A stretch of 64,000 nucleotides of DNA from Apostichopus japonicus. Taxonomy: Eukaryota; Echinodermata; Holothuroidea; Aspidochirotida; Stichopodidae. The notes below the pieces were generated by a model. The model had not been told where the DNA came from. It did no database searches and worked only from the letters and a program-made list of their open reading frames with translations. Positions 1 to 45,114 of this stretch are shown piece by piece. The stretch is taken from NCBI RefSeq assembly GCF_037975245.1, contig NC_092573.1, positions 18,114,265 to 18,178,264 on the forward strand. Reading direction: 5' to 3'. The position numbers were made by a program, and so were the translations under genes. The first letter of the stretch is position 1; every line of letters begins with the position of its first letter.

Positions 1-3000
1 GTCATTCCACTAGTTGAGTGGGAATGAGGGGTGGGGATGATTGGAAAGCCCTAATCAGAATATATATGCTGTTGCATGTGTTGTATTCATACAATTTGAT
101 ATATCATAGAGAAAATAGGGATGTACACTGTTATGGCTTTCTCCTATTGTTTGAGAAAGATTTTTTTTACCATTTCCAACAGCATAGATTAAGGTGATGT
201 ATATTAAATGTAAAGTAGAAGTGTTTTTTTTCCAACTATTAGGGTCCCCATAATGTGTGTGAGAATTTAATGACATTCTAATATTAATTTTTGACCATCT
301 TATTTTCACCGTTTCAAAGTTTTGATGTCATTCCAAATTGATGAACTGCTTAATCTCAAATGCATCAGTGTAGAAAATGATCTTGTCCAACTTTTACAGG
401 CTCCACCCATATGTGGAACCATAATGTTGGGCAAAAGGGGGGGGGGGGGATTGCTGAAGGGGGAAACTGGGAAAGCAGCTATATGTAGGTTAGAGCTATC
501 ATTAGGATCAAATATTTGAAAGCATAGGATTTTATGTGTATTCATCCTTGTTGAATGGGATGGAGGGTCGGGGAGGGGTGGTGGGTGTCCAATTGACTTG
601 GCTGCCCTATTGGTCGTCTATTTGCTTTTCTACCTGCTACGTAAAGTTTGATATGTCCTGAAAATTACAGTTTGTACACTATCACTCTATCTAGATCATT
701 GCATGTGGCAAGTGGTGTGGGTTACTATGGAATCAGGTACCGTATACAGGGTCAGACCTCCATAACGCCCTAATAATGTGATATTATGTATAAATAATGT
801 TTTGATGTCATTTCACTAGTTGAGTGGGAATGAGGGGTGGGGATGATTGGAAAGCCCTAATCAGAATATATATGCTGTTGCATGTGCTGTATTCATACAA
901 TTTGATATATTATAGAGAAAATAGGGATGTACACTGTTATGGCTTTCTCCTATTGTTTGAGAAAGATTTTTTTTACCATTTCCAACAGCATAGATTAAGG
1001 TGATGTATATTAGATGTAATGTCAAAGGTTTTTTTTTTCAACTATTAGGGTCCCAATGTGTGTGAGAATTAATGAACAGTCTAATATTAATTTTTGACCA
1101 TCTTATTTTCACCGTTTCAAAGTTTTGATGTCATTCCAAATTGATTAACTGCTTAATCTCAAATACATCAGTGTAGAAAATGATCTTGTCCAACTTTTAC
1201 AGGCTCCACCCATATGTGGAACCATAATGTTGGGCAAAAGGGGGGGGGGGGATTGCTGAAGGGGGAAACTGGGAAAGCAGCTATATGTAGGTTAGAGCTA
1301 TCATTAGGATCAAATATTTGAAAGCATAGGATTTTATGTGTATTCATCCTTGTTGAATGGGATGGAGGGTAGGGGAGGGGTGGGGGGTGTCCAATTGACT
1401 TGGCTGCCCTATTGGTCGCCTATTTGCTTTTCTACCTGCTACGTAAAGTTTGATATGTCCTGAAAATTACAGTTTGTACACTATCACTCTATCTAGATCA
1501 TTGCATGTGGCAAGTGGTGTGGGTTACTATGGAATCAGGTACCGTATACAGGGTCAGACCTCCATAACGCCCTAATAATGTGATATTATGTATAAATAAT
1601 GTTTTGATGTCATTTCACTAGTTGAGTGGGAATGAGGGGTGGGGATGATTGGAAAGCCCTAATCAGAATATATATGCTGTTGCATGTGCTGTATTCATAC
1701 AATTTGATATATCATAGAGAAAATAGGGATGTACACTGTTTGATGGCTTTCTCCTATTGTTTGAGAAAGATTTTTTTACCATTTCCAACAGCATAGATTA
1801 AGGTGATGTATATTAAATGTAAAGTAGAAGGTTTTTTTTTCCAACTATTAGGGTCCCCATAATGTGTGTGAGAATTTAATGAACATTCTAATGTTAATTT
1901 TTGACCATCTTATTTTCACCGTTTCAAAGTTTTGATGTCATTCCAAATTGATGAACTGCTTAATCTCAAATGCATCAGTGTAGAAAATGATCTTGTCCAA
2001 CTTTTACAGGCTCCACCCATATGTGGAACCATAATGTTGGGCAAAAGGGGGGGGGGGATTGCTGAAGGGGGAAACTGGGAAAGCAGCTATATGTAGGTTA
2101 GAGCTATCATTAGGATCAAATATTTGAAAGCATAGGATTTTATGTGTATTCATCCTTGTTGAATGGGATGGAGGGTCGGGGAGGGGTGGTGGGTGTCCAA
2201 TTGACTTGGCTGCCCTATTGGTCGTCTATTTGCTTTTCTACCTGCTACGTAAAGTTTGATATGTCCTGAAAATTACAGTTTGTACACTATCACTCTATCT
2301 AGATCATTGCATGTGGCAAGTGGTGTGGGTTACTATGGAATCAGGTACCGTATACAGGGTCAGACCTCCATAACGCCCTAATAATGTGATATTATGTATA
2401 AATAATGTTTTGATGTCATTTCACTAGTTGAGTGGGAATGAGGGGTGGGGATGATTGGAAAGCCCTAATCAGAATATATATGCTGTTGCATGTGCTGTAT
2501 TCATACAATTTGATATATCATAGAGAAAATAGGGATGTACACTGTTATGGCTTTCTCCTATTGTTTGAGAAAGATTTTTTTTACCATTTCCAACAGCATA
2601 GATTAAGGTGATGTATATTAAATGTAAAGTAGAAGTGTACCTGCTACGTAAAGTTTGATATGTCCTGAAAATTACAGTTTGTACACTATCACTCTATCTA
2701 GATCATTGCATGTGGCAAGTGGTGTGGGTTACTATGGAATCAGGTACCGTATACAGGGTCAGACCTCCATAACGCCCTAATAATGTGATATTATGTATAA
2801 ATAATGTTTTGATGTCATTTCACTAGTTGAGTGGGAATGAGGGGTGGGGATGATTGGAAAGCCCTAATCAGAATATATATGCTGTTGCATGTGCTGTATT
2901 CATACAATTTGATATATCATAGAGAAAATAGGGATGTACACTGTTATGGCTTTCTCCTATTGTTTGAGAAAGATTTTTTTTACCATTTCCAACAGCATAG

Positions 3001-6000
3001 ATTAAGGTGATGTATATTAAATGTAAAGTAGAAGGGTTTTTTTTCCATCTATTAGGGTCCCCATAATGTGTGTGAGAATTTAATGAACAGTCTAATATTA
3101 ATTTTTGACCATCTTATTTTCACCGTTTCAAAGTTTTGATGTCATTCCAAATTGATGAACTGCTTAATCTCAAATGCATCAGTGTAGAAAATGATCTTGT
3201 CCAACTTTTACAGGCTCGAGCCCACCCATATGTGCAACCATAATGTTGGGCAAAAGGGAGGGGGTTGCTGGAGGGGGAAACTGGGAAAGCAGCTATATGT
3301 AGGTTTGAGCCATCATTAGGATCAAATATTTGAAAGCATAGGATTTTATGTGTATTCATCCTTGTTGAATGGGATGGAGGGTAGGGGAGGGGTGGGGGTG
3401 TCCAATTGACTTGGCTGCCCTATTGGTCGTCTATTTGCTTTTCTACCTGCTACGTAAAGTTTGATATGTCCTGAAAATTACAGTTTGTACACTATCACTC
3501 TATCTAGATCATTGCATGGGGCAAGTGGTGTGAGTTACTATGGAATCAGGTACCGTATACAGGGTCAGACCTCCATAACGCCCTAATAATGTGATATTAT
3601 GTATAAATAATGTTTTGATGTCATTTCACTAGTTGAGTGGGAATGAGGGGTGGGGATGATTGGAAAGCCCTAATCAGAATATATATGCTGTTGCATGTGC
3701 TGTATTCATACAATTTGATATATCATAGAGAAAATAGGGATGCCTGTACACTGTTATGGCTTTCTCCTATTGTTTGAGAAAGATTTTTTTTACCATTTCC
3801 AACAGCATAGATTAAGGTGATGTATATTAAATGTATTGTCAAAGGTTTTTTTTTTCAACTATTAGGGTCCCAATGTGTGTGAGAATTAATGAACAGTCTA
3901 ATATTAATTTTGGACCATCTTATTTTCACCGTTTCAAAGTTTTGATGTCATTCCAAATTGATGAACTGCTTAATCTCAAATGCATCAGTGTAGAAAATAA
4001 TCTTGTCCAACTTTTACAGGCTCCACCCATATGTGGAACCATAATGTTGGGCAAAAGGGGGGGGGGGGATTGCTGAAGGGGGAAACTGGGAAAGCAGCTA
4101 TATGTAGGTTAGAGCTATCATTAGGATCAAATATTTGAAAGCATAGGATTTTATGTGTATTCATCCTTGTTGAATGGGATGGAGGGTCGGGGAGGGGTGG
4201 GGGGTGTCCAATTGACTTGGCTGCCCTATTGGTCATCTATTTGCTTTTCTACCTGCTACGTAAAGTTTGATATGTCCTGAAAATTACAGTTTGTACACTA
4301 TCACTCTATCTAGATCATTGCATGTGGCAAGTGGTGTGGGTTACTATGGAATCAGGTACTGTATACAGGGTCAGACCTCCATAACGCCCTAATAATGTGA
4401 TATTATGTATAAATAATGTTTTGATGTCATTTCACTAGTTGAGTGGGAATGAGGGGTGGGGATGATTGGAAAGCCCTAATCAGAATATATATGCTGTTGC
4501 ATGTGCTGTATTCATACAATTTGATATATCATAGAGAAAATAGGGATGTACACTGTTATGGCTTTCTCCTATTGTTTGAGAAAGATTTTTTTTACCATTT
4601 CCAACAGCATAGATTAAGGTGATGTATATTAAATGTAATGTCAAAGGTTTTTTTTTCAACTACAAGGGTTCCAATGTGTGTGAGAATTAATGAACAGTCT
4701 AATATTAATTTTTGACCATCTTATTTTCACCGTTTCAAAGTTTTGATGTCATTCCAAATTGATGAACTGCTTAATCTCAAATGCATCAGTGTAGAAAATG
4801 ATCTTGTCCAACTTTTACAGGCTCCACCCATATGTGGAACCATAATGTTGGGCAAAAGGGAGTGGGGGGGGGGAGGGTTGCTGGAGGGGGAAACTGGGAA
4901 AGCAGCTATATGTAGGTTAGAGCTATCATTAGGATCAAATATTTGAAAGCATAGGATTTTATGTGTATTCATCCTTGTTGAATGGGATGGAGGGTCGGGG
5001 AGGGGTGGGGGGTGTCCAATTGACTTGGCTGCCCTATTGGTCGTCTATTTGCTTTTCTACCTGCTACGTAAAGTTTCATATGTCCTGAAAATTACAGTTT
5101 GTACACTATCACTCTATCTAGATCATTGTATGTGGCAAGTGGTGTGGGTTACTATGGAATCAGGTACCGTATACAGGGTCAGACCTCCATAACGCCCTAA
5201 TAATGTGATATTATGTATAAATAATGTTTTGATGTCATTTCACTAGTTGAGTGGGAATGAGGGGTGGGGATGATTGGAAAGCCCTAATCAGAATATATAT
5301 GCTGTTGCATGTGCTGTATTCATACAATTTGATATATCATAGAGAAAATAGGGATGTACACTGTTATGGCTTTCTCCTATTGTTTGAGAAAGATTTTTTT
5401 TACCATTTCCAACAGCATAGATTAAGGTGATGTATATTAAATTTAAAGTAGAAGGTTTTTTTTTCAACTATTAGGGTCCCCATAATGTGTGTGAGAATTT
5501 AATGAACAGTCTAATATTAATTTTTGACCATCTTATTTTCACCGTTTCAAAGTATTGATGTCATTCCAAATTGATGAACTGCTTAATCTCAAATGCATCA
5601 GTGTAGAAAATGATCTTGTCCAACTTTTACAGGCTCCACCCATATGTGCAACCATAATGTTGGGCAAAAGGGAGGGGGTTGCTGGAGGGGGAAACTGGGA
5701 AAGCAGCTATATGTAGGTTAGAGCTATCACTAGGATCAAATATTTGAAAGCATAGGATTTTATGTGTATTCATCCTTGTTGAATGGGATGGAGGGTAGGG
5801 GAGGGGTGGGGGGTGTCCAATTGACTTGGCTGCCCTATTGGTCGTCTATTTGCTTTTCTACCTGCTACGTAAAGTTTGATATGTCCTGAAAATTACAGTT
5901 TGTACACTATCACTCTATCTAGATCATTGCATGTGGCAAGTGGTGTGAGTTACTATGGAATCAGGTACCGTATACAGGGTCAGACCTCCATAACGCCCTA

Positions 6001-7337
6001 ATAATGTGATATTATGTATAAATAATGTTTTGATGTCATTTCACTAGTTGAGTGGGAATGAGGGGTGGGGATGATTGGAAAGCCCTAATCAGAATATATA
6101 TGCTGTTGCATGTGCTGTATTCATACAATTTGATATATCATAGAGAAAATAGGGATGTACACTGTTATGGCTTTCTCCTATTGTTTGAGAAAGATTTTTT
6201 TTACCATTTCCAACAGCATAGATTAAGGTGATGTATATTAAATGTAAAGTAGAAGGGTTTTTTTTCCAACTATTAGGGTCCCCATAATGTGTGTGAGAAT
6301 TTAATGAACAGTCTAATATTAATTTTTGACCATCTTATTTTCACCGTTTCAAAGTTTTGATGTCATTCCAAATTGATGAACTGCTTAATCTCAAATGCAT
6401 CAGTGTAGAAAATGATCTTGTCCAACTTTTACAGGCTCCACCCATATGTGCAACCATAATGTTGGGCAAAAGGGAGGGGGTTGCTGGAGGGGGAAACTGG
6501 GAAAGCAGCTATATGTAGAGCTATCATTAGGATCAAATATTTGAAAGCATAGGATTTTATGTGTATTCATCCTTGTTGAATGGGATGGAGGGTAGGGGAG
6601 GGGTGGGGGGTGTCCAATTGACTTGGCTGCCCTATTGGTTGTCTATTTGCTTTTCTACCTGCTACGTAAAGTTTGATATGTCCTGAAAATTACAGTTTGT
6701 ACACTATCACTCTATCTAGATCATTGCATGTGGCAAGTGGTGTGGGTTACTATGGAATCAGGTACCGTATACAGGGTCAGACCTCCATAACGCCCTAATA
6801 ATGTGATATTATGTATAAATAATGTTTTGATGTCATTTCGCTAGTTGAGTGGGAATGAGGGGTGGGGATGATTGGAAAGCCCTAATCAGAATATATATGC
6901 TGTTGCATGTGCTGTATTCATACAATTTGATATATCATAGAGAAAATAGGGATGTACACTGTTATGGCTTTCTCCTATTGTTTGAGAAAGATTTTTTTAC
7001 CATTTCCAACAGCATAGATTAAGGTGATGTATATTAAATGTAAAGTAGAAGTTTTTTTTCCAACTATTAGGGTCCCCATAATGTGTGTGAGAATTTAATG
7101 AACATTCTAATATTAATTTTTGACCATCTTATTTTCACCGTTTCAAAGTTTTGATGTCATTCCAAATTGATGAACTGCTTAATCTCAAATACATCAGTGT
7201 AGAAAATGATCTTGTCCAACTTTTACAGGCTCCACCTATATGTGGGTGTAGCCATCATGTGGGGCAATAAGGGGGGGGGGTTGCTGGAGGGGGAAACTGG
7301 GAAAGCAGCTATATGTAGGTTAGAGCTATTGCTAGTA
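1..7337 (+). repeat. Satellite array 1, ~0.8 kb monomer, about nine copies
   Basis: Head-to-tail tandem array. The landmark GTCATTYCACTAGTTGAGTG recurs at 1, 807, 1609, 2415, 2814, 3620, 4426, 5234, 6035 and 6832, giving spacings of 797-808 bp plus one 399-bp partial copy (2415-2814). Copies look well over 90% identical by eye. Each full monomer has a length-variable G-run, a T-run and a run around GGTACCGTATACAGGGTCAG. The last copy breaks off near 7337, where unrelated sequence begins. No reading frame longer than about 85 codons is kept across copies, and frames are broken by the G-run, so the monomer is judged non-coding. The same monomer forms an array of opposite orientation at 17015-29835. 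Confidence 0.97.
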
Positions 7338-7640
7338 CCCCCACACACTATACTGTTTACCAAGATTTATGTAGGTTGACTAGTTTCTTGTCTGAGATAA
7401 GATGTAAAGGCTGAAAAATATTAATTCAAAGACTTGTTTTCAATAAAAAACACATATTCAAGTTCAGACATAGAAACTACCTTGAGTTGCCACTTCCAAT
7501 ATTCACATAAAAGGACTCCAAAGTTAAAACAATTCTCCAATATAAAAATCAGTGCCCCCACACACTATACTGTAGATCAAGATTGATATAAGGTGTGCTG
7601 TTTCTTGTCTGAAATATGAGGTAAAAGTCTGTGGGAACAG
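7338..7640 (+). repeat. ~206-bp direct repeat, two diverged copies
   Basis: CCCCACACACTATACTGT occurs at about 7350 and 7557, each followed by similar text (ATCAAGATT.., then TTTCTTGTCTGA). Related copies lie in the same orientation at 16170-16510, so this is a separate family that borders both satellite arrays. Nothing coding was seen. Confidence 0.75.
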
Positions 7641-7689
7641 GAACGCTTTTAAAACTATATTACTACTGGATCTAATTTAAGGATACAAT

Positions 7690-8535
7690 AACTTTTGCAT
7701 ATTGAAGGGTGCATCAAAGTATATACAAAGTTATCTCATGTACACATATCTTTGAATTCTTTCTGAAATTGTTTTTATCATATACCAGTACATTTGAGAG
7801 TTATTTTTGAAATTCATTGTATTCAAGCAATGCATACATATTACAGAAACACACATTAGTATTAGAACCAGTCCCCCTATTGAGGTATGTGTGCAGACAG
7901 CTCACAGTTTTAATCACTGACATGAATTTCTTATTTTGTCAAGATATCATGAAACCTATATAAACTGCATTACTACTGTGTCTATTTTAAAGGTACAATC
8001 ATAATTTTGAATAATGAAGGGTGCATTAAAGTATATGCTAAGTTATCTCATCCCTTTTGGAAAACACTGATGGAATTCTGAAAAAGTAAACGGTGAGGTT
8101 ACCTAGCTGGTCTTTTCAATGCGTGAGTAGGAAACTGGTCTTTAATTGGCATTACAACAAACTTGGTATACCTTGCAAAATACTGAAAAGTTAACATGTA
8201 CACATATCTTTGACTTCTTTCTGAAATTGTTTTTATCATATACCAGTTCATTTGAGAGTTATGTTTGAAATTCATTGTATTGAAGCAATGCATGTATATT
8301 ACAGGAACACACATTAGTATTAGAACCAGTTACACTGTTGAGTAATGTGTGCAGGGTGCATCAAAGTATATACAAAGTTATCTCATCCACTATTGGAAAA
8401 CACTGATGGAAATTCGGAAAAAGAAAACGTTGAGGGTACCTAGCTAGTCTTTTCAATGCGTGAGTAGGAAACTGGTCTTAAATTGGCATTACACAAACTT
8501 GGTATACCTTGCAAAATACTGAAAAGTTAAGGTCA
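7690..8535 (+). repeat. ~337-bp tandem duplication
   Basis: The block with GGTGCATYAAAGTATAT, TCTTTTCAATGCGTGAGTAG and TTGGTATACCTTGCAAAAT is present at 8017-8194 and again at 8354-8529. The intervening part (ACACATATCTTTGA to AGAACCAGT) is present at 7742-7875 and 8198-8330. The copies are clearly diverged. No gene was seen. Confidence 0.85.
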
Positions 8536-8925
8536 ATACTTGGGAAAACATGGGATGAGGTGGTCTATATCAGTGAGCTAAATGCGCGGCTAATTCCATG
8601 CTATCTTTGAATTATACTCTTTGAATTATAGTTGCATATATGTCATAAATGGGCGTAGGAATGATTTGTGTGCACCCTACTTGGCTTATAACTGCATTTG
8701 TGAAGATCGATGCTGTCATAGTGACTAAAACAGTCCATTTGAGTGCATTCAGGGTAGATGTACAGAGCTCCCAACTGACCCTCATTTCGCGGGTTGGACC
8801 CGCATTCTAACACCCAAACCCGCTGACCCGCGCAAGTGTCCGAAAAACCCGCATTGTCATTGTCAAGTATACATAAAAAAATTGCATCAAATTTTGACTT
8901 AGCAACCATCATTTCTTTAGCATTT
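8536..8925. other. Spacer without recognisable gene
   Basis: Single-copy sequence as far as can be seen. Several GGACCCGC/ACCCGC patches around 8795-8860 make it locally GC-rich. The only frames are short and show no domain. Confidence 0.5.
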
Positions 8926-8933
8926 AGCATAAT

Positions 8934-9657
8934 GGTTACATCTCTATGTTCCGACGTCTCTATGTTCCGACGTCTCTATGTTCCGACATCTCTATGTTCC
9001 GACATCTCTATGTTCCGACGTCTCTATGTTCCAACAATTTTTTTGGACTCTAATTTTTTTTACCCAAATTTTTTCGGACTCAATTTTTTGGACCAAAATT
9101 GTTGACCAACATGTTTTCGGACCAACTTTTTTCGGACCAAAATTATTTTAGACCAACATATTTTTATGACCAATTTTTTTTTGGACCAAAATTTTTGACA
9201 CCAACATGTTTTCGGACCAACTTTTTTCGGACCAAAATTTTTTTTGACCAAACTGATTTTGGTCCCAAAAAGTTTGAGTACAAACAATTAAATTTCGGGT
9301 CACAAGCAATTTTCGGTCACAAGCACTATTTGGGTCATAACAAACTTTGGGCCCTTTTTTTCCTGAAAAAAATTTGGTGCGTCCAAAAAATTGTGTCCCC
9401 AAAAAGGTAGGTCAGAAAAATTGTTGGTCCAAAAAAATTGAGTCCCCCCCAAAAAAATTGGGTCCCAAAAAATTTGGGGCCCAAAAAATTAAGTCCCCCC
9501 AAAAAATTTGGTCCGAAAAATGGGGGACAAAAAATATTGAGTCTCCCAAAAAAAATTGGGTCCGAAAAAATTTGGGTCAAAAAAATTAGAGTCCAAACAA
9601 TTTGTCGGAACATAGAGACGGCGGAACATAGAGACGTCGGAACATAGGGATGTCACC
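8934..9657. mobile_element. Fold-back (giant hairpin) DNA element, copy 1
   Basis: 724-bp element flanked by the perfect 8-bp direct repeat AGCATAAT (8926-8933 and 9658-9665). The left end reads GGTTACATCTCTATGTTCC; the right end is the inverse of GGTGACATCCCTATGTTCC. The 16-mer TCTCTATGTTCCGACG is tandemly repeated about six times inside the left end, and its inverse three times at the right end. The interior consists of short degenerate units: T-runs followed by GGACC or GACCAA in the left half, and GGTCC followed by A-runs in the right half. The whole element is therefore a long imperfect palindrome. It has no transposase, so it is non-autonomous. An 8-bp TSD fits hAT-, P- or Merlin-type transposition; the superfamily is not settled. 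Open frames here only translate the low-complexity repeat. Confidence 0.93.
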
Positions 9658-9665
9658 AGCATAAT

Positions 9666-10622
9666 AGAGTATAAAACCTCCTTTACAGCATCATTTGAAC
9701 CACAAATTAGCCTATATTTCTTTTCATTGGGGTGAGCAGCGAACATTTTCATGCCACGGGAAGAATGAATTATCACCTACTATTCAATTTATTGATGTTA
9801 CACACAAAAAAATGCATATTTCTCAGAAAATATTGGGTGACAAAAGAATTCAAAATGGGGGACACCCCCTCCCCTTATAACCCTCCCCCAGGACGGCGAT
9901 TCGTGGCATGGACCCGCATTTGCCTTCTCAAGAGTTGGGAGCTATGGGTGTATGTCTTCGAACACAAATAGGTTTCTCTCCATGCCATATGTAGCACAGA
10001 GAACATATCCCTGTAGAATCTTTGCCCTCTTTCAGCTGATCACTTAACTGACCTCCAAGGTAATAACACCTCTGCATTAGTATGACCTTGGCCATACTCA
10101 CAACACACTCAGTGACCATCAGCTACTTCAGGCCTTTTCATACAGTTTATATTCACACAGTGCAAACAATAACAATGTGTTAAGTCATCATATGCATGTG
10201 TATAGCCTATGCTTGCAGTGTGGCTATGTTATAACAGGTGAACATGTATTGCAGGGATGAAATGTTGAAATTAAGTTAATGGACCATGAACATTTCATTT
10301 TGTTTAAATTTCCAAGGAATAGGGATTGTAGTAGCTCTAGGCCTATAGTCAACCAGCTTAGCTTTGAGCAGAAGCAAAAAATGCAGGATTAACACATTTT
10401 TTTTATAAGTTTTAGCTGGTGAATGTGCCAAGCAAGTCTGTAGCAACTTCCCAGGCTAAGCAAACTGTATGTAATTATGTACTAAGCAAACTAGACATAG
10501 TATGGGAGCCTCTATGACCATATTGTGTGTTATACCAGTTAAGCAAGCTTTATCCTGTAGTTTGTCACATCAACTTCAGTTGTCGGGTTTGGACCCCAGA
10601 ATTCCCTGAAAGACCCCCAATA
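9666..10622. other. Spacer between the two fold-back elements
   Basis: About 950 bp of ordinary AT-rich sequence with a C-rich patch near 9865-9895 and one TAGGCCTA at 10338. No domain, splice-framed frame or repeat was recognised. Confidence 0.5.
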
Positions 10623-10630
10623 CAGGTGAC

Positions 10631-11289
10631 GGTTACATCTCTATGTTCCGACGTCTCTATGTTCCGACGTCTCTATGTTCCGACGTCTCTATGTTCCGAC
10701 GTCTCTATGTTCCGACAAATTGTTTGGACTCTAATTTTTTTGACCAAAATTTTTTTCGGACCCATTTTTTTGTGACCCATTTTTTGCCGGACCCTATTCT
10801 TTTTGGACCCAATATTTTCGGACCCATTATTTCGGGCTCATTTTTTTGGACCCAATTTTTTGGACCTAATTTTTGTGGACCCAATTTGTGGGGACCCATT
10901 TTTTCGGACTTAATTTTTTGGGACCCATTTTTTGGGGACCTAATTAGGGGTCAGGGAAAAAATTGGCCAGAAATCATGTTGGTGCAAAAGTTGGGTCCCA
11001 AAAAAATTTGGGTCCGAAAAATTTTGGTCCAAAATAGTTGGGGTCCCAAGAAACATTGGTCAGAAAGAAATTTGGTCGGAAAACATGTTGGTAAAAATTT
11101 TGCACAAAAAAATATGGGTCCAAAAAATTGTGTCCCAAAAATTGTGGTCCAAAAAAATGGGGTCCGAAAAAAAATTGGGTCACAAATAGGGTCCGACTAA
11201 AATTTGGTCAAAAAAAATTAGAGTCCAAACAATTTGTCGGAACATAGAGACGTCGGAACATAGAGACGTCGGAACATAGGGATGTCACC
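10631..11289. mobile_element. Fold-back (giant hairpin) DNA element, copy 2
   Basis: 659-bp second copy, flanked by a different perfect 8-bp repeat, CAGGTGAC (10623-10630 and 11290-11297), so it is an independent insertion. The end sequences match copy 1. Here the 16-mer TCTCTATGTTCCGACG occurs five times on the left and three times (inverted) on the right. Just inside, the left arm text CAAATTGTTTGGACTC is mirrored on the right as GAGTCCAAACAATTTG, so the paired arm extends well beyond 100 bp. The T-run/GGACC units of the left half switch to GGTCC/A-run units near 10935-10980. No transposase is encoded. Confidence 0.94.
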
Positions 11290-11297
11290 CAGGTGAC

Positions 11298-11918
11298 ACC
11301 TTATCTTGCACATGGACCAAACTGTGGCAAAAGGAAGTTATAAGAAGAGAAAAAGTTGCAATGTTCCTTGTCTGGAAGGGGCTGTTTAGTCACCACGCAG
11401 CTGATTCAGTTAGTTCAGTTACAGTAGTTCAGACAAACCATTAACCAAAATGCCTGTTCATGAGATTACAAAAAAAAAATGAATATAAAGGACAAGAGTA
11501 TGGTTGAATAGGTTTCATCATCAGGTTCCTTTCCCCCTTCCCTCTCATCATACATTGTACATTATTGAAACTTGGTCATAAGGAGCTGCTACTAGTGGGT
11601 CTTATGCAGCCTTGAGTGACCAAATCCACTTTTCACATCACATCACATTACCAGTGAGCTACTTTGGCTTCTACTGTACTATTTATCATACCCCTAACCT
11701 ATCTGTCTCTCAAGCTAACCTCAGAAACCAAAGCCTGGCAGTCATCTTACAGTAAAACTATAGGCTTTGGGTACATACATAGTCCATTTACAATCCACTA
11801 TACTCTCCTTGAAAATGAAAACAGCTAATGAAATATTTATGACCTCTGTTGTAAAGTATAACTGAGCTAGCTAGGTCTTTATGGTAGGCTCTCAGTATCA
11901 AATCGTGGGCAATTGACA
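11298..11918. other. Spacer without recognisable gene
   Basis: Ordinary non-repetitive sequence. No splice-framed coding region, RNA gene or repeat was recognised. Confidence 0.45.
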
Positions 11919-11962
11919 TACCAGGCGCGTATCCAGGGGGGGTGTGGGGGCACGTGCCCCCC

Positions 11963-12125
11963 AGGTAAGAAAAAGAAGAGAGAAAAAAAGAGAGAAGAAA
12001 AAAGGAAAAAAGAGGGGGAAAAAGAGGAGGAAGGAGAGGAAAGAAGGGAAAAGAAAGAGGAAAGAGAGAAAGGAGAAAAAGGAGAGAACAGAAGAAAAAC
12101 CCCAAGACACCAGGAAGAGAAAGAG
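11963..12125 (+). repeat. Long homopurine (GA-rich) tract
   Basis: About 160 bases almost without pyrimidines, made of GA, GGA and A-runs. It is part of the CAGG element; the equivalent tract appears as pyrimidines at 63470-63625. It could form triplex (H-DNA) structures (inference). The Lys/Glu/Arg-rich and Phe/Leu/Ser-rich open frames across it are composition artefacts. Confidence 0.85.
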
Positions 12126-12261
12126 GAACAGTGACATAATTACAGCACTGATCCCTATTATATACACAGGGTAGTCAGTGACGGATCGAGAAGGGGCGTC
12201 CACCTCAGACTACCCCTTACACCGACAACTCCATTTTTGACATTTCCATTTTCCTCTCACT

Positions 12262-12410
12262 AATGTTTATATATATATATATATTTATATATATATGCTA
12301 TATATGTATATATATATATATGCTATATATATATATATGCTATATATATATATATGCTATAGATATATATATGCTATATATATATATATATGCTATATAT
12401 AGTATATCAT
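12262..12410. repeat. TA microsatellite with interspersed GCTATA units
   Basis: ATATAT runs are broken regularly by TGCTATA. It lies inside the CAGG element; a much shorter TA patch sits at the corresponding place near 63284-63303. Confidence 0.9.
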
Positions 12411-12767
12411 GGCGCGTGTGTATGTATGGACGCCTTAAACAATTGTAAATTTGTGTTATGAAACCAATTGTGGCTGGTCTTGAACTCGACTTAGTCGTCG
12501 GGGAACATGACGCATTTCGGTATTAGCCCAGGATCTATATCCGAACTGCACTAGACATATGTCCTTCGATGCAACACTCATCCAGAGATAAAATGTTATA
12601 CAACGCGAACTTAATGCTAATTGTTACCCCACCCCTAGTACCGTAACTCATACAATGAATCTAAAAATAAAAAATTCCGCATGCGATTTGAGAATTGAGC
12701 ACATTTCCTGCTAATATCATGTAGTGGATCCAAAGGTGTATCATTGCCGGCGGGGGGGGGGGCGGAC

Positions 12768-13711
12768 CAGGGGCATATCCAGGATTTTCCAATAGGGGGG
12801 GGCGTCAGGCATGAATGATCGCCGTCCTGGGGGATGGGTCTAAGGGGAGGGGGTGGACAATTTTTGCTTTCGAAGAAGGGGTGAAATGCAAAATGGTGCC
12901 ATATGCATGGGCGGCGATCCGTATTTCCGAGTGGGGGGGGATATGACCTTGTTGACTATCTAAGCTTAGCGCCACCATGAGTTGGCGCGAAGCGTACAAG
13001 AAAATTTTGGGATTAACAAACCCTCTAGATGGCCAGAAACGGCACTTCCCGAGGGTGCATATATGTACTATATCAATACCGTGGGCGCAATAATACATTT
13101 TGTTGTTATAGGGCCAATGAAGCCTACAGTCAACTATTCTTGCTTTATAAAGACGCTTTATTTGAAAAGATCGCACTGCGTTTATGGTAGGCGAGATATG
13201 AAGCTAAAAAAGAGCCGTACATTAACAATGATGCATAAATGTAGGCATGAAAATATTCTTATCCCTGGCATTTGGTGGGGGGATATGGTGTATTACATCC
13301 CCTCCATCCATTTTCATGGGGGATATATCCCCCCTTCCCCCCCAGGATCGCCGCCCATGGCCATATGTGATCCATTTTTCGACCTTAATAATAAGCAACA
13401 TTTCCAGTAAATATGAACACAAAATGCACAATTTAGTATGGCTGGCATGTCACTTAGTGTTTATAGTGATAATACAAACACAATTACCATCTATGTTTCT
13501 AAAACTATTATGCCGCCGAACTTCGCCAGAACCTTTTTCTGGCAAACAAAATATAAAGCATACGGGAGGGGGGGGGGGGGTTGAGCGATCACCGACATCT
13601 CACTTAAAGGTCGTCATCAATTTTTTTATATTTTTGGCTAAACTTTTTTTTTTTGGTGACGGCCAATAGGGGGTGCGCACGCCTGTTGCGCCCCCCCTGG
13701 ATACGCCCCTG
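12768..13711. mobile_element. Nested TIR element with 8-bp target-site duplication
   Basis: It begins CAGGGGCATATCCAGGATTTT-like and ends in CCTGGATACGCCCCTG, a matching terminal inverted repeat. GGGCGGAC flanks both ends (12760-12767 and 13712-13719), an 8-bp TSD as expected of hAT elements. It carries the palindromic core seen in the CAGG family (CTATCTAAGC near 12957, GCGCCACCAT/GTTGGCGCGAAGCG). No transposase reading frame survives. Poly-G stretches near 12930, 13270 and 13565 inflate the short open frames. Confidence 0.82.
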
Positions 13712-14673
13712 GGGCGGACGAACACATTACTTCTTGAGATTGTTCCCACCTGCATGAAAACGCGTGCCCCACAACCCTACACCCGCCCCTCTAATCGCTT
13801 CCCGATGAGTTACGAAACCAGACCCATCGTATACAAAATTCTACTTGGATTATTTGTCCCCTGATTTTTTTCTGTTGATGCCCATGCATTTCCCCAAACT
13901 AAATTTCTAAGCCATGAGATCTAAAACTTAAGGAGGCTTGGGAGCATCATTGGGTCTGGGAAGTGTTATTTCCGGTGATCTGGGAGGTATATTTGCCAAA
14001 AATTTCTTGTACGCTACGTGCGAACCCATGGTCGCGCTTCGCTTAGATAGTATCAGAGAACAGACACGCGTCCCCACCATTATCCACGACTGATCTGCGC
14101 CCATGCACCAATAAATTAACTGTGTCTGAATTTTCGAAATTTCCCTGACCAACATTCCTAAACAATCTTCCATCTTCTCGCGCAATTTTGACCGGTCTGT
14201 TAGGGGTTGAAGGAGGTTTTTCTGTATTGGCTGTCCATAGATAAAATTTTGTGCAACATTTTGGGTATGTTTTGAAGTGAATTTATTTCATGAGAAGTGT
14301 GAATTTTCAAATTCTGAACGAATAATGGGCTTAAAACCTTGAAAAGTGGGACTGACAGGTATTGTGGGCCACGACGTAGAATCACCTACAAAAGCAATGA
14401 TCCACAGGAGATGCGATGTGGTCGAACATGATGTGTGACTGGTGACAATCTTCAAAAAGATTATGGATGGAAATTGGGAAAATACTTGATTTACTCAGGC
14501 AAAAGTGAACATCTAGTGGGTCATTTTCAAGCCCGAGATGTGCCATTTCCGGTAATCTGAGGGGTGTCAAAACGAGAAATATTCTTGTACGCTGCGCGCC
14601 AACCTATGGTGGCGCTCCGCTTAGATAGTCATTCGCGCCCCCGGGTTAGAAAATCCTGGATACGCCCCTGCAT

Positions 14674-15324
14674 CAAGGGCGGAGGAAGCACTTTTAATCT
14701 GGGGGGCACTGACATCAAAAGGCACTTTGCAGAAATTAGATTGGACTGATGCAGCCTTATATTTAGTACCCTTCATAACTCTTATTGTATTATCTTATTT
14801 GCGTATACACATCACTCCATCAACGCCCCCCCCCCCCCCTCAAGGAAAATATGCATACTAGCACTGCAATATCCAATGTGCAAATTGGGAAACAAGGAAC
14901 AAGTTTTCTTTTGAGACAAAATGAGGTGAAATCATGCTAGTTGCTAATTAATGTAGGAATCTTTCGAATTAGAGTTTATTTCTTGCTAATATCTTAACAA
15001 TTTTTTTTCCATTCAAAATAGTTTTGAGTTTGACCCACAGAAATTCATTAAAAGTCAAGGGCGCATCCAGGATTTGCAAAGTTGTATGCGCGACTATCTG
15101 AGCGGAGCGCCACCATTGGTTGGCGCAGAGCTTAGAAGAAAATTTTTGGTTTTACAAACCCCTCAGATGGCAAGAAACGGCCTTCCCGAGTGTTCATTCT
15201 GGTTCCCTGGCCTCTTGCTAACTTGAGACACCTCAATTTTTATGTAGAAAAGGGGCACATTTTTAACCTGAGGAAAAGTGGGGGGGCACGTGCCTCCTGT
15301 GCCCCCCCGGTTCCGCCGCCCTTG
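14674..15324. mobile_element. hAT-like non-autonomous element with 8-bp TSD
   Basis: Left end CAAGGGCGGAGGAAGCAC, right end (inverse) CAAGGGCGGCGGAACC. The perfect 8-bp flank CCCTGCAT occurs at 14666-14673 and 15325-15332. The TSD overlaps the last bases of the CAGG element copy A, so this insertion is younger than that element. Inside, 15056-15190 is a fragment of the CAGG-family head (GGGCGCATCCAGGATTTGC and the GAGCGCCACCATTGGTTGGCG core). It has no coding capacity. Confidence 0.85.
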
Positions 15325-16169: not shown

Positions 16170-16510
16170 CAAAACACATGTTTGAGCTCAGACTTGTGCA
16201 AATTTTCCACAACCTAGTACTCCAAACTGAAAACAGTACCCCAAATTGTACCGTATATCAAGATAGTTGTGCTAGTTTTGTCTCTAAAATTAGAAGTTAA
16301 AGTTGGAAAAGTTTAGTTTAAAGATTTGTTAACAACAAAAAAAAACACATATTTGAGCTCAGTCATAGCAAGTAACTTGATTTTTCATTTCAGATTATCA
16401 CATACAAGGACTCCAAAGTTAAAACAGTACTCCAAAATAAAGTGCAGTACCCCCACACACTGTACTGTATATCAAGAGTTGTATAAGGTGCACTTGTTTT
16501 TTGTCTGAAA
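16170..16510 (+). repeat. ~210-bp direct repeat doublet related to 7338-7640
   Basis: The series ACTCCAAA..AAAACAGTACCCC..GTATATCAAGA..TTGTCTCTAAAAT is repeated at ~216-bp spacing (16245 and 16460). It matches the doublet beside array 1 in the same orientation. ACACATATTTGAGCTCA is a shared landmark. Confidence 0.7.
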
Positions 16511-36987: not shown

Positions 36988-37092
36988 ATGACAGACTTTG
37001 TCCCTTGCATAGATCGTCTTTTCAATACATGTTGTATTGGACAGCAACGGTTCAATATGACCAAGAAAGCATCTTGTACAAAAGATACAATC

Positions 37093-40000
37093 ATGCCTGG
37101 AGAAACTAGAAAGAAGATTCTGTTCTTGACATATCTTTCACTTTGGACAGTACACTGTTCTGGAAGTAACATCATTTTGTTAACAGCCAATTCGGTGTCA
37201 TCTCCGAGTCACTATATGGTACTATCTACTATAACTGGAGGTCTTGTTGCCAATGGTCATAACGTGACTATTGTAACAAATGACGCAAAGGGTACCTACG
37301 GATTTCCAAATGGAACATACAGTCAGGCTCTCACTTTCAAAGCTTCTTACACAAAAGAAGAAATGGAGGAAAAGCAACGAAGGTTATTCCAAGAGATCAC
37401 GTTTGAGTTGCAAGGAAAGATAGAGAAATTTAAGTGTATTGCTGATGGAATGAACTTGATATTCAATAGCTGCCTCGATTTCTGGAGAGATGTGCAACTT
37501 CTTGCAAAAGTTAAAAAATCAAGTTTCGATTTCGCCTTGGTCTTTCCTTTTTCATCCTGTGATATTTTAATGGTTCATTATATCAACATTCCATTCGCAG
37601 TTCTCTTTCCCAGCGTACGTGCCCCGACATTTCACGAAGGTTATATAGGTATGCCGTACCCTGCATCGTATGTTCCCTTTGATATACAGGGCATTCTCAC
37701 AGACGAAATGACATTTCTAGAAAGACTTCAGAACTTCGCGACTCCATTTATGTATGATGCAATGCAATATATTGCTAACTGGCCCTACCACCAAATTCAA
37801 ATTGAATTTGACATATCTCCAGAGAAATCAATCAAAGAACTCTACTCACATGCATCTCTATACCTGGCGCATGTAAGTCTTGGAAGTGACTTTCCACGGC
37901 CATACACACAAAACTTCATTCCTATCGGGGGCTTAATCACCCAACCAAGCAAGCGTTTGCCAAAGGTAAGTACAACAACTTTTGTTCATGATTTGTATCT
38001 GGCAACTGCATCTGCTTCATGAAGAATATTGCTGTGCTACCTTCAGTGAAACTGTTGAAAATAGGAATAAGGCTACATCTATTCTACAATAGTGTTCTGC
38101 GAAAAAAAAAGAGGATTTATTATTGAATTCATATTAATAGATATGATAGTAGCAGGCATTTCCCAGAAACCATATCTGGTCATTGTGAACCTGCCTGCAA
38201 TTTTATATTGTAACAACGCTATTCCGTTTCCTGTAACTCTGCCCAGCACCGACGTCTGTATCGTAATTCATCAGAATTCTTTAACCTGCTTACCTGAACT
38301 TTGATAACTATCTAACTGTGGAAAACGGCTTAACAGCACCAGTCTCGTACCAAGCGGCCGTACCAACCCCTAAACCACCGGACCCTACCAAAAGGAGGTA
38401 CCTCCGCGCGCGTTAACTTAAGCAATAAGTTTGTAAGTACCGGTACTTGTGTTTTTTGTATACTATCAAGTAATTACAAGGAAAGTGTTATCATATTTTT
38501 TTTATTACATTTAACTGCCCTTTCGTCAACTTTTGCGTCTGCCGATTCCTTTCCCACTCCGACAACAAAACCTAAAAAGAACTACAACATGTATCCGACT
38601 GCGTACACCATATATTCAGTTCCTCGTGTTTAAAGGAATTTAGGATTTCCAGTACTAGAATGGTTACCCGAGTTTTTTATTGAAGAACTCAGTTTACTAG
38701 TTACAAAAACTATGACTTCAGCAACTCCTCTTATGACACAGCTTTCTATGATCTTAAATTTGTTTTAAACGATATTTTATTCCTCTACCGTTACCTCAAT
38801 TTTGGATTCCCTTGTGTCTTCGAACATTAAGGAATCGTATCCAAATCAAACTACATCAATTAAGTACTTGATCATATAAAGACTTCCGAGGGGGGGGGGG
38901 GGAGTGGGTGGTGTATTTTATAGGCACTGATCACCCAATCCTTGACCAAGAGGTGTTCATCTGCCATCTGGATGCCCGACTGTTCTGAATCTGTGGATGC
39001 TTTCAGTTTAGGTCATGTTTAGTGCACACCTCCCACCGCACCGCTTATGTGTGTTTCTGGGGTGAGGGGCCAGCAACCCCCCACCCGTCAGTAGTTCCTA
39101 AGCTGCTGTGAACCACTGATTGGCCCATGTTGATTTATTTTATAGTGCCCCATAGCCTATATTAGCTCTTGACTTATGTCAATCTTCATGGGCTATTGTT
39201 CACTCTAGCTTTTATAAAAAAATATATATAAAAAACACAAATGTAGCTTAACTCAGTACCTAATGTGATTTGACATTCACAACTTGTGGTAGCATTAAGA
39301 GCACCATACATATATTACAAAAAAATTCAGTTGATGCGGTTGAGATGCCTACTATTCGTACGCTAATTTCTTTGTTTTGTTGGAACTATACGTATAAGCC
39401 GATTATTCTCCATTGTGCATTGTGTTATGCATTCTCCATTTTACTAAGAGCTCCCGTTTCCTATTTCATAGGAGTTGGAAGAATTTGTTGAAGGATCCGG
39501 TGACCATGGTGTTATTGTATTTACATTGGTAAGTGACATTAAATCCTGTTGGATAATATTCAAGTTCGTTACTATCCTTATCTTGGTGTGGTAATGTCTT
39601 TTCAGGCGGTAGTGAGGCAAATTAGAGACCACTAACCCCCATAGGAATGTTTTACTTTCCTTTGCAAATCAATGCCATTCATGATATACCTCCAGAGCAT
39701 ATTGATAATTGTCTTTATCTCAATCAAACTTTTGTAACTTTTCCACTGATGTTAATGACCCATTCAAAGCAAACCTTATGCAACACCACACAGCGAACGA
39801 TTATTGATGACCATTGGCGCAATTATTACTCTTCATGTATTAAATGAATACCACGCTTGGAGAGTCATTCTCCGCCTTACTATAACCACATATCTAATAT
39901 TTTAACTTTTTCTTCCCAAAAGGGTTCTGTTATTAAAAGTTTGCCAAACAACGATCTTGCCAATATTTTTGCACGTGTGTTCAGAAAGCTTCCACAGAGA

Positions 40001-41001
40001 GTTATATGGAGACACAATTCAGACCAACCAGAAAATTTAAGCAATAATACAAAACTACTAAAGTGGCTTCCACAAAATGATCTGTTAGGTAAGTAAGATG
40101 AGACGAAATCAATCTCACATGTTACGTTTAGCTACTTCAATCTTGGAATTACCAATAAACTAAAGACGAGGGTGGCTATATCACAATATACATAAACTAT
40201 AGTGGCCTTCGGTATAATAGTGATACCGAATGACCTTCTTGGCTATTCCTCGTTTTCCCCAGGTTCTCGGGTCTCCATAATCTTAGTTGCTTTTATGTCT
40301 TTATAATTAAAATTGACGGTCAAGTATGAGTCTGCTCACGTCTGGTGCTGCAACCGTTACAGGTAAAGAAAAAAAAACGCTTCTATCCTTCTATGTCATT
40401 ATTGCAGGTCATCCTAAGACGCGACTTCTAATTTATCATGGCGGTAGTAACGGTGTTTTGGAGGCCATCAGCCACGGCGTTCCCATGGTGATCATCCCTA
40501 TGTTCGTTGACCAATTTACCCACGCTGCCAGAGTCCAAAAGAAAGGGATGGGGCTTATGATAGACAAGGCCAATATCACGGAGGAAAGTGTGATGGCGGC
40601 TGTTCAGGAAGTATTGAATAATCCCAGGTACAATGATCTCTCCATTTTGATATGTTTATGTCACTTTGATGCAACTGTGAGCGAATTTAAAATTATCGTT
40701 TGTATCTTTCGTATCTTTCAGTTACAAAGAGCGAGCTCAGCTGTTTTCAGACATCCATAACGACTTGCCGATGAAACCTTTAGAGAGGGCGGTCTACTGG
40801 ATTGAACACGTCATGAAATTCGGCGGTGCCCATTTAAGACCACGATCTGCTGATATGAACTTTATAGAACTTTACATGATAGATGTTGCAGTTTTTCTTA
40901 TTATCGTTTCTGCCATTGGTCTTTATGTTGATTACCTTATTCTTAGCAAACTCTTCAGAATGTGTTGCAAAACGGATAAAGAAAAACAAAAGTCTGAATA
41001 G
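37093..41001 (+). CDS. UDP-glucuronosyl/glycosyltransferase (UGT), five exons, complete
   Basis: It transfers a sugar from a UDP-sugar to small lipophilic acceptors and is expected in the ER membrane facing the lumen. Exons: 37093-37965, 39472-39528, 39923-40088, 40408-40627 and 40722-41001. All introns are GT-AG; phases are 0, 0, 1 and 0 (after two bases of the codon at the last junction). The total is 531 codons, the usual UGT length. The start at 37093 is preferred over an in-frame ATG at 36988 because MPGETRKKILFLTYLSLW gives a signal peptide directly. Visible marks: SPSHYMV with the acceptor-site His; ELEEFVEGSGDHGVIVFTL then GS across the exon 2/3 join; the family signature from WLPQNDLLG to HGGSNGVLEAISHGVPM and MFVDQ, with the sugar-binding D-Q pair; then a C-terminal membrane helix around FLIIVSAIGLYVDYLIL and a Lys-rich tail. 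Oddity: the position of the catalytic Asp (usually FDxxxxD) reads FDFALVF. A possible AATAAA lies at 41699. Confidence 0.93.
37966..39471 (+). other. UGT intron 1
   Basis: A 1.5 kb intron with donor AG/GTAAGT and acceptor TTTCATAG/GAG. It holds a G-run near 38891 and no recognisable inserted gene. Its ORFs are not conserved-looking. Confidence 0.85.
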
Positions 41002-42550: not shown

Positions 42551-45114
42551 TCATTTGTTACTTGATGCCTTTAATACTGGTAGTTCTTCATAAGTACCAT
42601 CACTTTGAGACGACTCAACAATAGGTAGAAAGGTAAATGGGTCGCGTTGCTGTTTTCTTGTGTGCTGCCCAGTATGCCCAGAAGGAATAGCAGGAAGTGG
42701 GCTTCTTCTTGTCCCTTTCATAGCCCCACTCCTGCTCACTTTATTCTTAAAATTTTGCAAAATAGATGATTCCTTCTGCTTCCGGAATTTCGCTCGTTCC
42801 GCTGGGATTTCTTCATAGATGCTTTGCGACTCATCTTTGTAATTTTTGTGAGCTTTCTCAGGGACGGATGTTTCATCATAAGTGTCTTCGTCCACGGTGT
42901 TATATTTTATTTGCCTATGATCAGTACCACCGGAGAAAGAAGGCAACTCAATATTTTCATCAGCACTAAAGTAGATGTCTTCTTTGCCGTTCTCATTGGC
43001 ATCATTGCAAGAGGTAAAAATTGATTCATCGTATGAAGAGCCGCCTGGTTGGTGTAATCCTGTTTCAGGTTGCCTCAGATTACCGTTAAACATTGAGCTG
43101 TCGTCCACAATATTTTTATCAAATATATCATCTTTCAAACCAAATGATCCAGTTCGTTCGTATTTTCTGGTATTAACTACATCCGTAGCTTCATATGTCT
43201 CAGCTTCCAGCTTGGTAGTTCCTATCATTGAGTTGCCCTCGTTTGCAAATGTTTCATCATCAATAACACCAGCATAGATGTTTTCCTGTGTGTCAGCTTC
43301 GTCATAACTCTCCTCCGTGTTAAGATCTCTCGCATAGTTGGAGGTATCTTTGAAAGAGGCTAGAGCATTGATTCCTTCCTTTTCTATATCAGTGTACCCT
43401 TCTTTTGATGTGGTTAAAGAGGCATTCTTGTCCCTTGTTTTTGCGTCCTCATCAACTGTGAGTGGTGCTTTTGAAAACGTATCCTCAGTCATCGCTTCCT
43501 CATCTACCATAGAGTATGATGCTTTTGCATCATTCATCGTGTCATCATTGTCTCTTGTCATCGCTTCCTCATCTAAGACAATGTAAGATGATTTTGTAGA
43601 GTTCACCATGTCCTCCCTATCTCTTTTCATTGCTTCCGCATCGACCTCAGTGTAAGATGCTTTTGCAGCGTTCATCGTCTCCTCTCTGTCTTTCGTCATC
43701 GCTTCCTCATCTAGCGCAATGTAAGATGCTTTTGCAACGTTCACCCTGTCTACGCTGTCCCTCGTCATCGCTTCCTCGTCTAACGCAATGTAAGATGCTT
43801 TTGCACCGTTCATCGTGCCTTCACTGTCCCTCGTCATCGCGTCCTCATCTAGCGCTATGTAAGATGCTTTTGCACTGTTCATCGTGTTCACCCTGTCTCT
43901 TGTCATCCCTTCTTCATCCAGCTCAATGTAGGCGGCTTTTGGTATGCTAATGGTGCCATTTTGTTCCATTTTAACCCGCTCCACGTCTGGAATAAGGTAC
44001 GTTGGTCCCAAGAGTTGTGTTTGTAAGGAGTTGTCGTCTGCCCTACCCTGTTCTTTAATTTCCATGTATGATGTTGTAGTCTGCGTAGGATTGATGGGAG
44101 GTAATGGGAGATCTCTATCCTTATTCAGGAGAGGTTCAAATACTTTCATATAAGCAGTTCCAGCTCTTTCGATGTTTTCTTTGTTTGTACTAGGAGTACC
44201 CAGTAGACCAGGGCTAATATATTGAGGTGTACCAACTTCATTTACGTCAATATAAGAACCTCTTTGAGTCCCTCCGCTCTTTCCCATAGATGTTGTAGAC
44301 AACGTCCCAACATCCGGTTTATTTCTTTGCTCCGCGCAGCAAGTCTCTTCATCTGGTTCGATGTATGAACATGATAGCCGATGATTCCTAAGGTCGCCCT
44401 TACTTAACGTCACCTTTTTGCGCATTTTGACTGTTTGAGATTCATTGGTCACTATCACTTTATCATACGACTGTGTGATCATATTCCCGCAGCTAACGCT
44501 ACTATTGAGTCCATTGATGTCTTCGGAATGGTCCCTGTTCTTAACAGACTGGGAATTCATGATCTCTGCTGTACTAGACTGATCATAGATCTCTGACGAA
44601 TATACCTGTGGCATTGCAGATTTGAACTTCGCAACAGCTTTTTGCACTACTGCCTTGTTTCCTGCCGTTAAATGCCTTACGTCAGCCAGTGAACCCTCTC
44701 TTGTAGTAACATCGTTACTCCTCGTAACCATTTTGCTATGTTGCATATTATCAGCTGTCTCCGGCATGAGACCGTTAACAAGTACGTTTGCTGATGATGT
44801 TATGTCTGATTGAGAGCTACGTACATCTGTGTCTTCCTTCTCTACATTTCCATTTGACTCGGATGGATCAATTGATATTTCCTGTGACCCATTTTCGACC
44901 AGGGACTGACCAAATAAAATCAAGTCCAACGTCTTTGAATATGGTTCTCCCTCTCCATCTTCAGCAGGAGAGTTACCTGTCAGTTTGCTTAAAGAAGTAA
45001 CACTTGTTAATTTCTTTTCTGGTGGAGCTTTAATTTTCAATGGCATATAGCGGTCTAAAGATGATGTTTGCCGCTTCTCTAAGGCATGATAGTCGGAACC
45101 ATCTCTATCAACTT
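42551..45114 (-). CDS. Receptor exon L: tyrosine-rich cytoplasmic tail and stop codon
   Basis: 2564 nt in one exon, 853 codons plus stop. It opens EVDRDGSDYHALEKRQTSS, a typical juxtamembrane style, and runs on acidic, Ser/Thr/Tyr-rich and apparently disordered. Tyr motifs include CSYIEPDEE, QYISPG, AYMKV, SYMEIKE, TYLIPD, NIYAGV, SIYEEIP (YEEI, the classic Src-type SH2 optimum, 42806-42817) and TYEELP near the end. Pro-rich DLPLPPINP and SPLPAIP could bind SH3 domains. The central part is the 23-residue repeat at 43420-43940. No catalytic domain was found. Confidence 0.9.

Follow-up and report, generated by a model that had tools for sequence, protein, structure and literature searches.

The window, i. 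e. the whole stretch of 64,000 nucleotides analysed here (C13:18114265-18178264 of the Apostichopus japonicus genome, an assembly of 671,581,487 bases or 671.6 Mb in 35 contigs), opens with a tandem array at 1-7335. Its unit measures ~806 bp, the copies are ~96-99% alike, and the array includes a perfect 399-bp duplication at 2239-3034. A repeat of ~165-215 bp is found at 7380-7595 and again at 16272-16490 (77% alike), with several more in another locus of the genome, L040. Further along the window, a UDP-glucuronosyltransferase-like gene (PF00201) extends over 36988-40760 in two pieces (36988-38022 and 40326-40760). On the minus strand, an 831-aa open frame at 42551-45046 contains 69-bp tandem repeats at 43488-43941; neither Pfam (at E 0.001) nor the solved structures (at E 0.01) yielded a match for it. 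A search of the window against Rfam returned no matches. Between the tandem array and the gene lies a larger dispersed repeat, referred to here as the carrier, which spans at least 7446..15000 (at least 7.5 kb, without assigned strand; these are the limits examined and not its true ends). The carrier holds the foldback element E1 and has been the host of a second one, E2.

Architecture of the two elements

E1 occupies 8934..9657 on the plus strand (724 bp), as delimited by its ends, by the alignment of its two halves and by copies elsewhere in the genome, and is framed by two perfect copies of the 8-bp target-site duplication AGCATAAT at 8926..8933 and 9658..9665. E2, at 10631..11289 on the same strand (659 bp), lies between two perfect copies of a different 8-bp sequence, CAGGTGAC, at 10623..10630 and 11290..11297. 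The first-pass annotation had placed both pairs of ends and had described the perfect but different flanks, and its positions proved exact to the base. For a single copy with fixed ends, the chance of an exact 8-bp match is ~2.4e-5.

Each element had also been described as one imperfect palindrome over nearly its whole length, which is borne out by local alignment of the halves (216 of 274 columns identical in E1, 238 of 304 in E2). Both fold far better than 20 shuffled sequences, with z values of -13.1 for E1 and -21.9 for E2. The arms, as had so far gone undescribed, are tandem arrays with a period of 16 bp in the outer and ~15 bp in the inner domain. The outer unit, GACGTCTCTATGTTCC, forms a near-perfect array in each arm, with six units in the T-arm and three in the G-arm of E1, and five and three, respectively, in E2. 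In E1, the outer domain of the T-end arm (8934..9032, plus strand) consists of the terminal unit GGTTACATCTCTATGTTCC followed by five 16-bp units, and that of the G-end arm (9603..9657, minus strand) of three units including the terminal unit GGTGACATCCCTATGTTCC. The corresponding domains of E2 are found at 10631..10713 (plus strand) and 11239..11289 (minus strand). The inner domain of E1 (9033..9602, plus strand) is composed of degenerate ~15-bp TTTTTTGGACC-type repeats and then their inverse. Such inner arrays are loose, T-rich in the left half of an element and complementary in the right half, and the short middle of E1 (~9287-9380) is similar to sequence in the loci L040 and L042. Allowing for up to one mismatch, the window contains 17 occurrences of the 12-mer TCTCTATGTTCC, all of which fall within E1 or E2, where 0.26 are expected.

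The terminal 19-bp motif begins with GGTTACATCTC at one element end and with GGTGACATCCC at the other. E1 and E2 agree in all of their first 54 bases and have a single difference in their last 79, while the alignment of the whole elements has 548 identical columns out of 744. Hence, the ends are conserved between two subfamilies that are otherwise rather dissimilar. The longest open frames within E1 and E2 (103 and 185 aa) run through the repeats, so that neither element codes for a transposase. With long inverted repeats that account for most of their length and are internally tandem, with unit numbers that differ between arms and between copies (up to 81), with target-site duplications and with dispersed copies, the elements show the features of the foldback class.

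The carrier repeat and the origin of E1 and E2

At 14 loci read, including the window, E1 sits at the same position inside the larger repeat and is flanked by the same AGCATAAT duplication, one side of which is mutated to AGCATAGT in four of the 13 sister loci. The sister carrier copies are 96.0-99.6% alike, and across 11300-15000 five other copies match throughout at 98-99%, with many more matching in part. Among the sister copies of E1 itself, the outer arrays vary in length in steps of a full 16-bp unit. The inner domains carry 0-10 substitutions per ~570 columns, a level similar to that of the flanks or at most ~2x as high, and three copies show 34-39 gap columns there. Since 13 further loci have E1 at the same carrier site, the duplication around E1 records an older insertion into the carrier ancestor, and E1 was most likely carried to the window inside the larger repeat instead of jumping into this locus.

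The history of E2 is a different one. All 13 sister carriers read are devoid of E2 and show the joined flanks with a single CAGGTGAC; over 80 bp, these empty sites are exact in 11 cases and have one difference in two. E2 is thus a clean insertion at this place that followed the spread of the carrier. The original proposal of real transposition as opposed to local duplication therefore holds for E2 and, in view of 34 distinct flanks in the genome (see below), for the family, but most likely not for E1 at this locus. Flanking duplications alone can hence mislead as to where a jump took place: that of E1 is genuine, yet most likely inherited with the carrier.

Since the carriers were found through E1, this set cannot reveal carriers without it. 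E1 may be missing from the carrier at C14:6.29 Mb and from that at C12:8.00 Mb, as no exact T-end is listed near either. Parts of the carrier within 11922-14674 also match separately, for example with 11922-12765 next to 13711-14670 at C16:23.86 Mb. As such separate matches occur in many places, the carrier is in turn a composite of nested repeats.

A dispersed family with 8-bp target-site duplications

Across the genome, the end motif is present 674 times within one mismatch, compared with 0 for the reversed control, and the exact T-ends add up to 221 (102 + 46 + 73). Copies are undercounted by the genome search with E1, because 40 of 522 candidate places were scored. For closer inspection, 79 loci that showed one end or both were fetched on the basis of either similarity to E1 or an exact end motif, and the uniformity of their ends is partly a result of this selection. 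Both ends together with an 8-bp duplication of at most two mismatches were found in 47 of the 79. With E1 (also present as L002) and E2 of the window added to these, the distinct duplications amount to 34 sites, 27 of them perfect, or to 33 if L051 and L052, two neighbours with almost the same flanking repeat, represent one insertion. Eight of the 55 both-end loci have no 8-bp repeat within two mismatches, although a perfect repeat of 9 bp is found in two of these eight (L032 and L036), and one of 7 bp in L038. A further 24 of the 79 loci have one end only in the fetched piece, often since the piece was short; L076, which belongs to these, turned out to be complete and perfectly duplicated once a longer piece was fetched. 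The eight both-end loci without such an 8-bp repeat speak against the reading of the family given below.

The duplications lean to GTnnnnAC, with G1 in 17, T2 in 18, A7 in 21 and C8 in 17 of 34, these positions having been chosen post hoc. T2 and A7 occur together in 13 of 34 duplications (nominal p 8e-6). The elements start with GG in nearly all both-end copies, which were found by that very motif. Odd interiors were noted in L042, L053, L059, L070, L071 and L075. Among these, L053 consists of an end motif on its own, with no units, L070 has an open frame ~4.3 kb inside that, read by eye, we take to resemble a reverse transcriptase, and L071 is a foldback interrupted by a P-type element that is nested in it. 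An apparent single element of 7.5 kb in L040 was rejected, as it contains two separate foldbacks.

Of the 219 typed T-ends, 30 map to C17. The region from ~16 to 25 Mb of C17 is crowded with T-ends and contains long 16-bp arrays, and the same chromosome bears Merlin, MULE and P-type genes.

Outer arrays: unit numbers and uniformity

Within the family, the number of 16-bp outer units per arm ranges from one to 81. Of the 26 elements counted, 22 comprise three to six units in the T-arm and 16 comprise three in the G-arm. The G-arms of L013, L028 and L035, however, comprise 55, 35 and 28 units, respectively, and the T-arm of L076 comprises 81 units with no mismatch. All four of these elements are flanked by perfect 8-bp duplications, and their units are identical apart from the terminal one. 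On C17, seven of 20 T-ends chosen open into arrays of at least 22 units, a share that applies to one region and not genome-wide. The ten long arrays examined share a common layout, with a terminal unit that retains its distinct sequence, followed by copies of one and the same unit. Most units of the L065 array (27 of 30) carry one changed letter, which indicates that arrays are renewed from single units. Presumably, they grow by slippage or by repair synthesis at the hairpin-prone ends. Arrays that stay uniform up to 81 units, in elements with intact duplications, render the question of how transposon ends lead to satellite DNA directly testable. A scan of viral contigs for two joined 16-bp units gave no match.

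Candidate transposases and rival readings

The family shows conflicting signs, namely a hAT- or P-like target, Merlin-like ends and a Tm1-like architecture, and tests for a partner were therefore carried out. Matches to PF12762, PF10551, PF05699 and PF21787 in the own genome were compared with 219 of the 221 exact T-ends (by eye for PF21787), so that the comparison covers exact T-ends and six-frame matches with a proximity limit of 12 kb. An autonomous element with the same terminal inverted repeats, which the first-pass annotation had named as worth looking for, did not emerge in convincing form: within this scope, no Merlin, MULE, hAT or P match proved to be a partner with the GGTTACAT/GGTGACAT ends, one broken hAT piece inside a T-end aside. 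The assembly may not contain the partner, or the partner may differ in its ends through divergence or belong to a kind outside those compared.

A reading that dispenses with a transposon altogether, and takes the copies for local or segmental duplications of a hairpin satellite, could draw on the spread of E1 within a larger repeat and on three T-ends on C1 that lie 5.3 kb apart, two of which share their flank in the manner of a tandem duplication (L041, L046). With different flanking repeats at 34 sites, it has next to no probability, and for E2 it is refuted by the 13 empty sites. As for the enzyme, a transposase of the hAT superfamily is a possible, albeit doubtful, mover of the family. A leaning similar to GTnnnnAC is known from hAT and P elements, and the hAT pattern nTnnnnAn is present here as a leaning, with both letters in the 13 duplications mentioned above. 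Moreover, a hAT dimerisation domain (PF05699, E 6e-6) lies inside the T-end L059 (C5:2210262) and points at the end, in the order T-end, three units, ~50 bp of foldback-type sequence and domain. Yet L059 has no second end within 7.2 kb, and this hAT fragment has 87 matches, whereby L059 is the only one of 71 rounded positions compared that falls within 12 kb of an exact T-end. Searched as such, PF05699 gave 150 matches (150 of 633 candidates scored), two of them within 12 kb, but both of these are in carriers, ~2.3 kb upstream of E1 and outside it. The GG ends also differ from those of hAT elements, which are known to start with CA or TA. Somewhat less probable, and on the whole rather unlikely, is a Mutator-like (MULE) foldback of the type represented by Tm1 and suggested for Tetris. 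Like Tm1, the present family has arms built from tandem units and terminal motifs that differ from one end to the other, the MULE Muta1 combines 8- or 9-bp duplications with subterminal tandem repeats, and two 9-bp duplications are known in the present family (L032, L036). The rule here is 8 bp, however, and not 9, and the papers on Tm1 and Muta1 give no target preference, whereas the E1/E2 family shows a leaning. Of 38 MULE matches, a single one (C7:11.257 Mb) is within 12 kb of an exact T-end, and it lies 11 kb from a carrier copy.

The terminal GG and the duplications of 8 or 9 bp are published features of Merlin elements that both recur in this family, and the genome contains 11 matches to Merlin genes. 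A Merlin (IS1016-like) transposase nevertheless appears unlikely, as the three of 11 loci read (L043-L045) are without the family ends that would enclose a DDE_Tnp_IS1595 gene, and 0 of the 11 is within 12 kb of an exact T-end. Still less probable is a partner from the P superfamily, as in the case of Galileo. It would be favoured by a P-type gene (PF21787, E 3.6e-9) and a PIF1 helicase gene at C17:22238191-22244416, where a T-end and a G-end enclose both and an 8-bp repeat with two mismatches flanks the segment. This P-type element is nested, though: its inverted repeats, 344 bp long and starting with TACAGGC/CACAGGC, are its own, and so is its 8-bp duplication, GTTCCGAC, which is made of the 16-bp unit itself. 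The 344-bp repeats in L071 were accordingly rejected as arms of the partner. By-eye comparison of all 45 PF21787 matches with the T-end lists revealed no other one near a T-end.

Two structures encountered in these searches deserve mention in their own right. A different large inverted-repeat structure is located near the Merlin transposase gene in L044 (L044:3259-4167). The nested P-type transposon (C17:22238229-22244052; L071, L085, L087) features convergent genes for a P-type transposase and a PIF1 helicase, a seemingly unusual pairing.

Proposed mechanism and history

Taken together, E1 and E2 are very probably members of a large non-autonomous foldback family that is mobilized in trans by cut and paste, with E1 as an old passenger and E2 as a later jump. 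The fixed length of the duplication, the exact empty site and the conserved ends point to cut-and-paste transposition by a transposase from elsewhere. This enzyme would bind the ends, probably via the repeated units; by analogy with Galileo, the 16-bp units are candidate binding sites. It would then pair the ends, excise the element and join it to an 8-bp staggered cut, which would leave the 8-bp duplication with its leaning to GTnnnnAC. The outer arrays gain and lose whole units, often in one arm only, presumably by slippage or during gap repair at an end that forms a hairpin, and remain uniform while the inner domains drift. In the order of events that we consider probable, E1 jumped into the carrier ancestor long ago and multiplied as its passenger, and E2 later jumped into the carrier copy of the window.

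A more far-reaching idea, to which a low probability is attached, is that of a foldback lineage with a transposase outside the tested groups, in which the 16-bp unit bound by the transposase can inflate in one arm to at least 81 identical copies while mobility is kept, so that minisatellite arrays would continually be seeded in new locations. Such a lineage would join GG ends like those of Merlin or MULE elements with a target preference like that of hAT or P. Within the echinoderm genome, the family is a well-defined and apparently recent one of the foldback type, whose insertions are clean, whose ends are sharp and for which the empty sites serve as a natural control.

Comparison with known foldback systems

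The first-pass annotation knew of no named family with this structure and regarded it as possibly undescribed. For the structure this has to be revised, since Tm1, Tetris and Galileo share it; for the sequence family the suggestion can be upheld within the literature searched. At the level of titles and abstract beginnings, the top-ranked papers listed contain no description of the family, and a search with a 15-letter piece of the 16-bp unit gave no hit. Provisionally, and judged from the literature alone, the sequence family thus appears to be unnamed and undescribed. Among echinoderms, the TU elements of sea urchins are foldbacks whose outer domain is made up of ~15-bp units and whose duplications measure 8 bp. 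In this general description, they resemble E1 and E2 in both respects.

Tm1 is a Mutator/Foldback family of root-knot nematodes for which paralogous empty sites likewise served as evidence (PMC3169594). Its arms of tandem units in variable number (13-15 bp in Tm1), its unlike terminal motifs at the two ends and its duplications of 8-10 bp agree with the present family (PMC3169594). In contrast, the sequences of units and ends differ, Tm1 duplications are most commonly 9 bp long and without consensus, as opposed to 8 bp with a leaning to GTnnnnAC and 9 bp in two loci here, and one Tm1 member codes for a 496-aa protein (PMC3169594). Galileo from the P superfamily also has long inverted repeats with tandem units, and its THAP domain binds sites in these units, which makes it the best experimental model for their role (PMC3688188). 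Unlike in Galileo, no P-type gene with the family ends was found among the matches tested, the sole one near a T-end belonging to the nested P element. Tetris of Drosophila virilis is a foldback as well, for which no transposase was found and whose duplications measure 8-10 bp; its tandem arm units gave rise to satellite DNA, and its authors suggest a Mutator-like (MULE) affinity (PMC4079207). The satellite-forming repeat of Tetris is TIR-220 instead of a 16-bp unit, and the host is a different one (PMC4079207).

In terms of structure, E1 and E2 hence represent a known kind, that of foldback transposons whose inverted repeats are built from tandem repeats. Arms of tandem units and short duplications are common to Tm1, Galileo, Tetris, TU as generally described and the E1/E2 family. 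The latter is set apart from these systems by sequences of its own, by duplications that are mostly 8 bp long and show a target preference, and by how large and uniform its arrays are.
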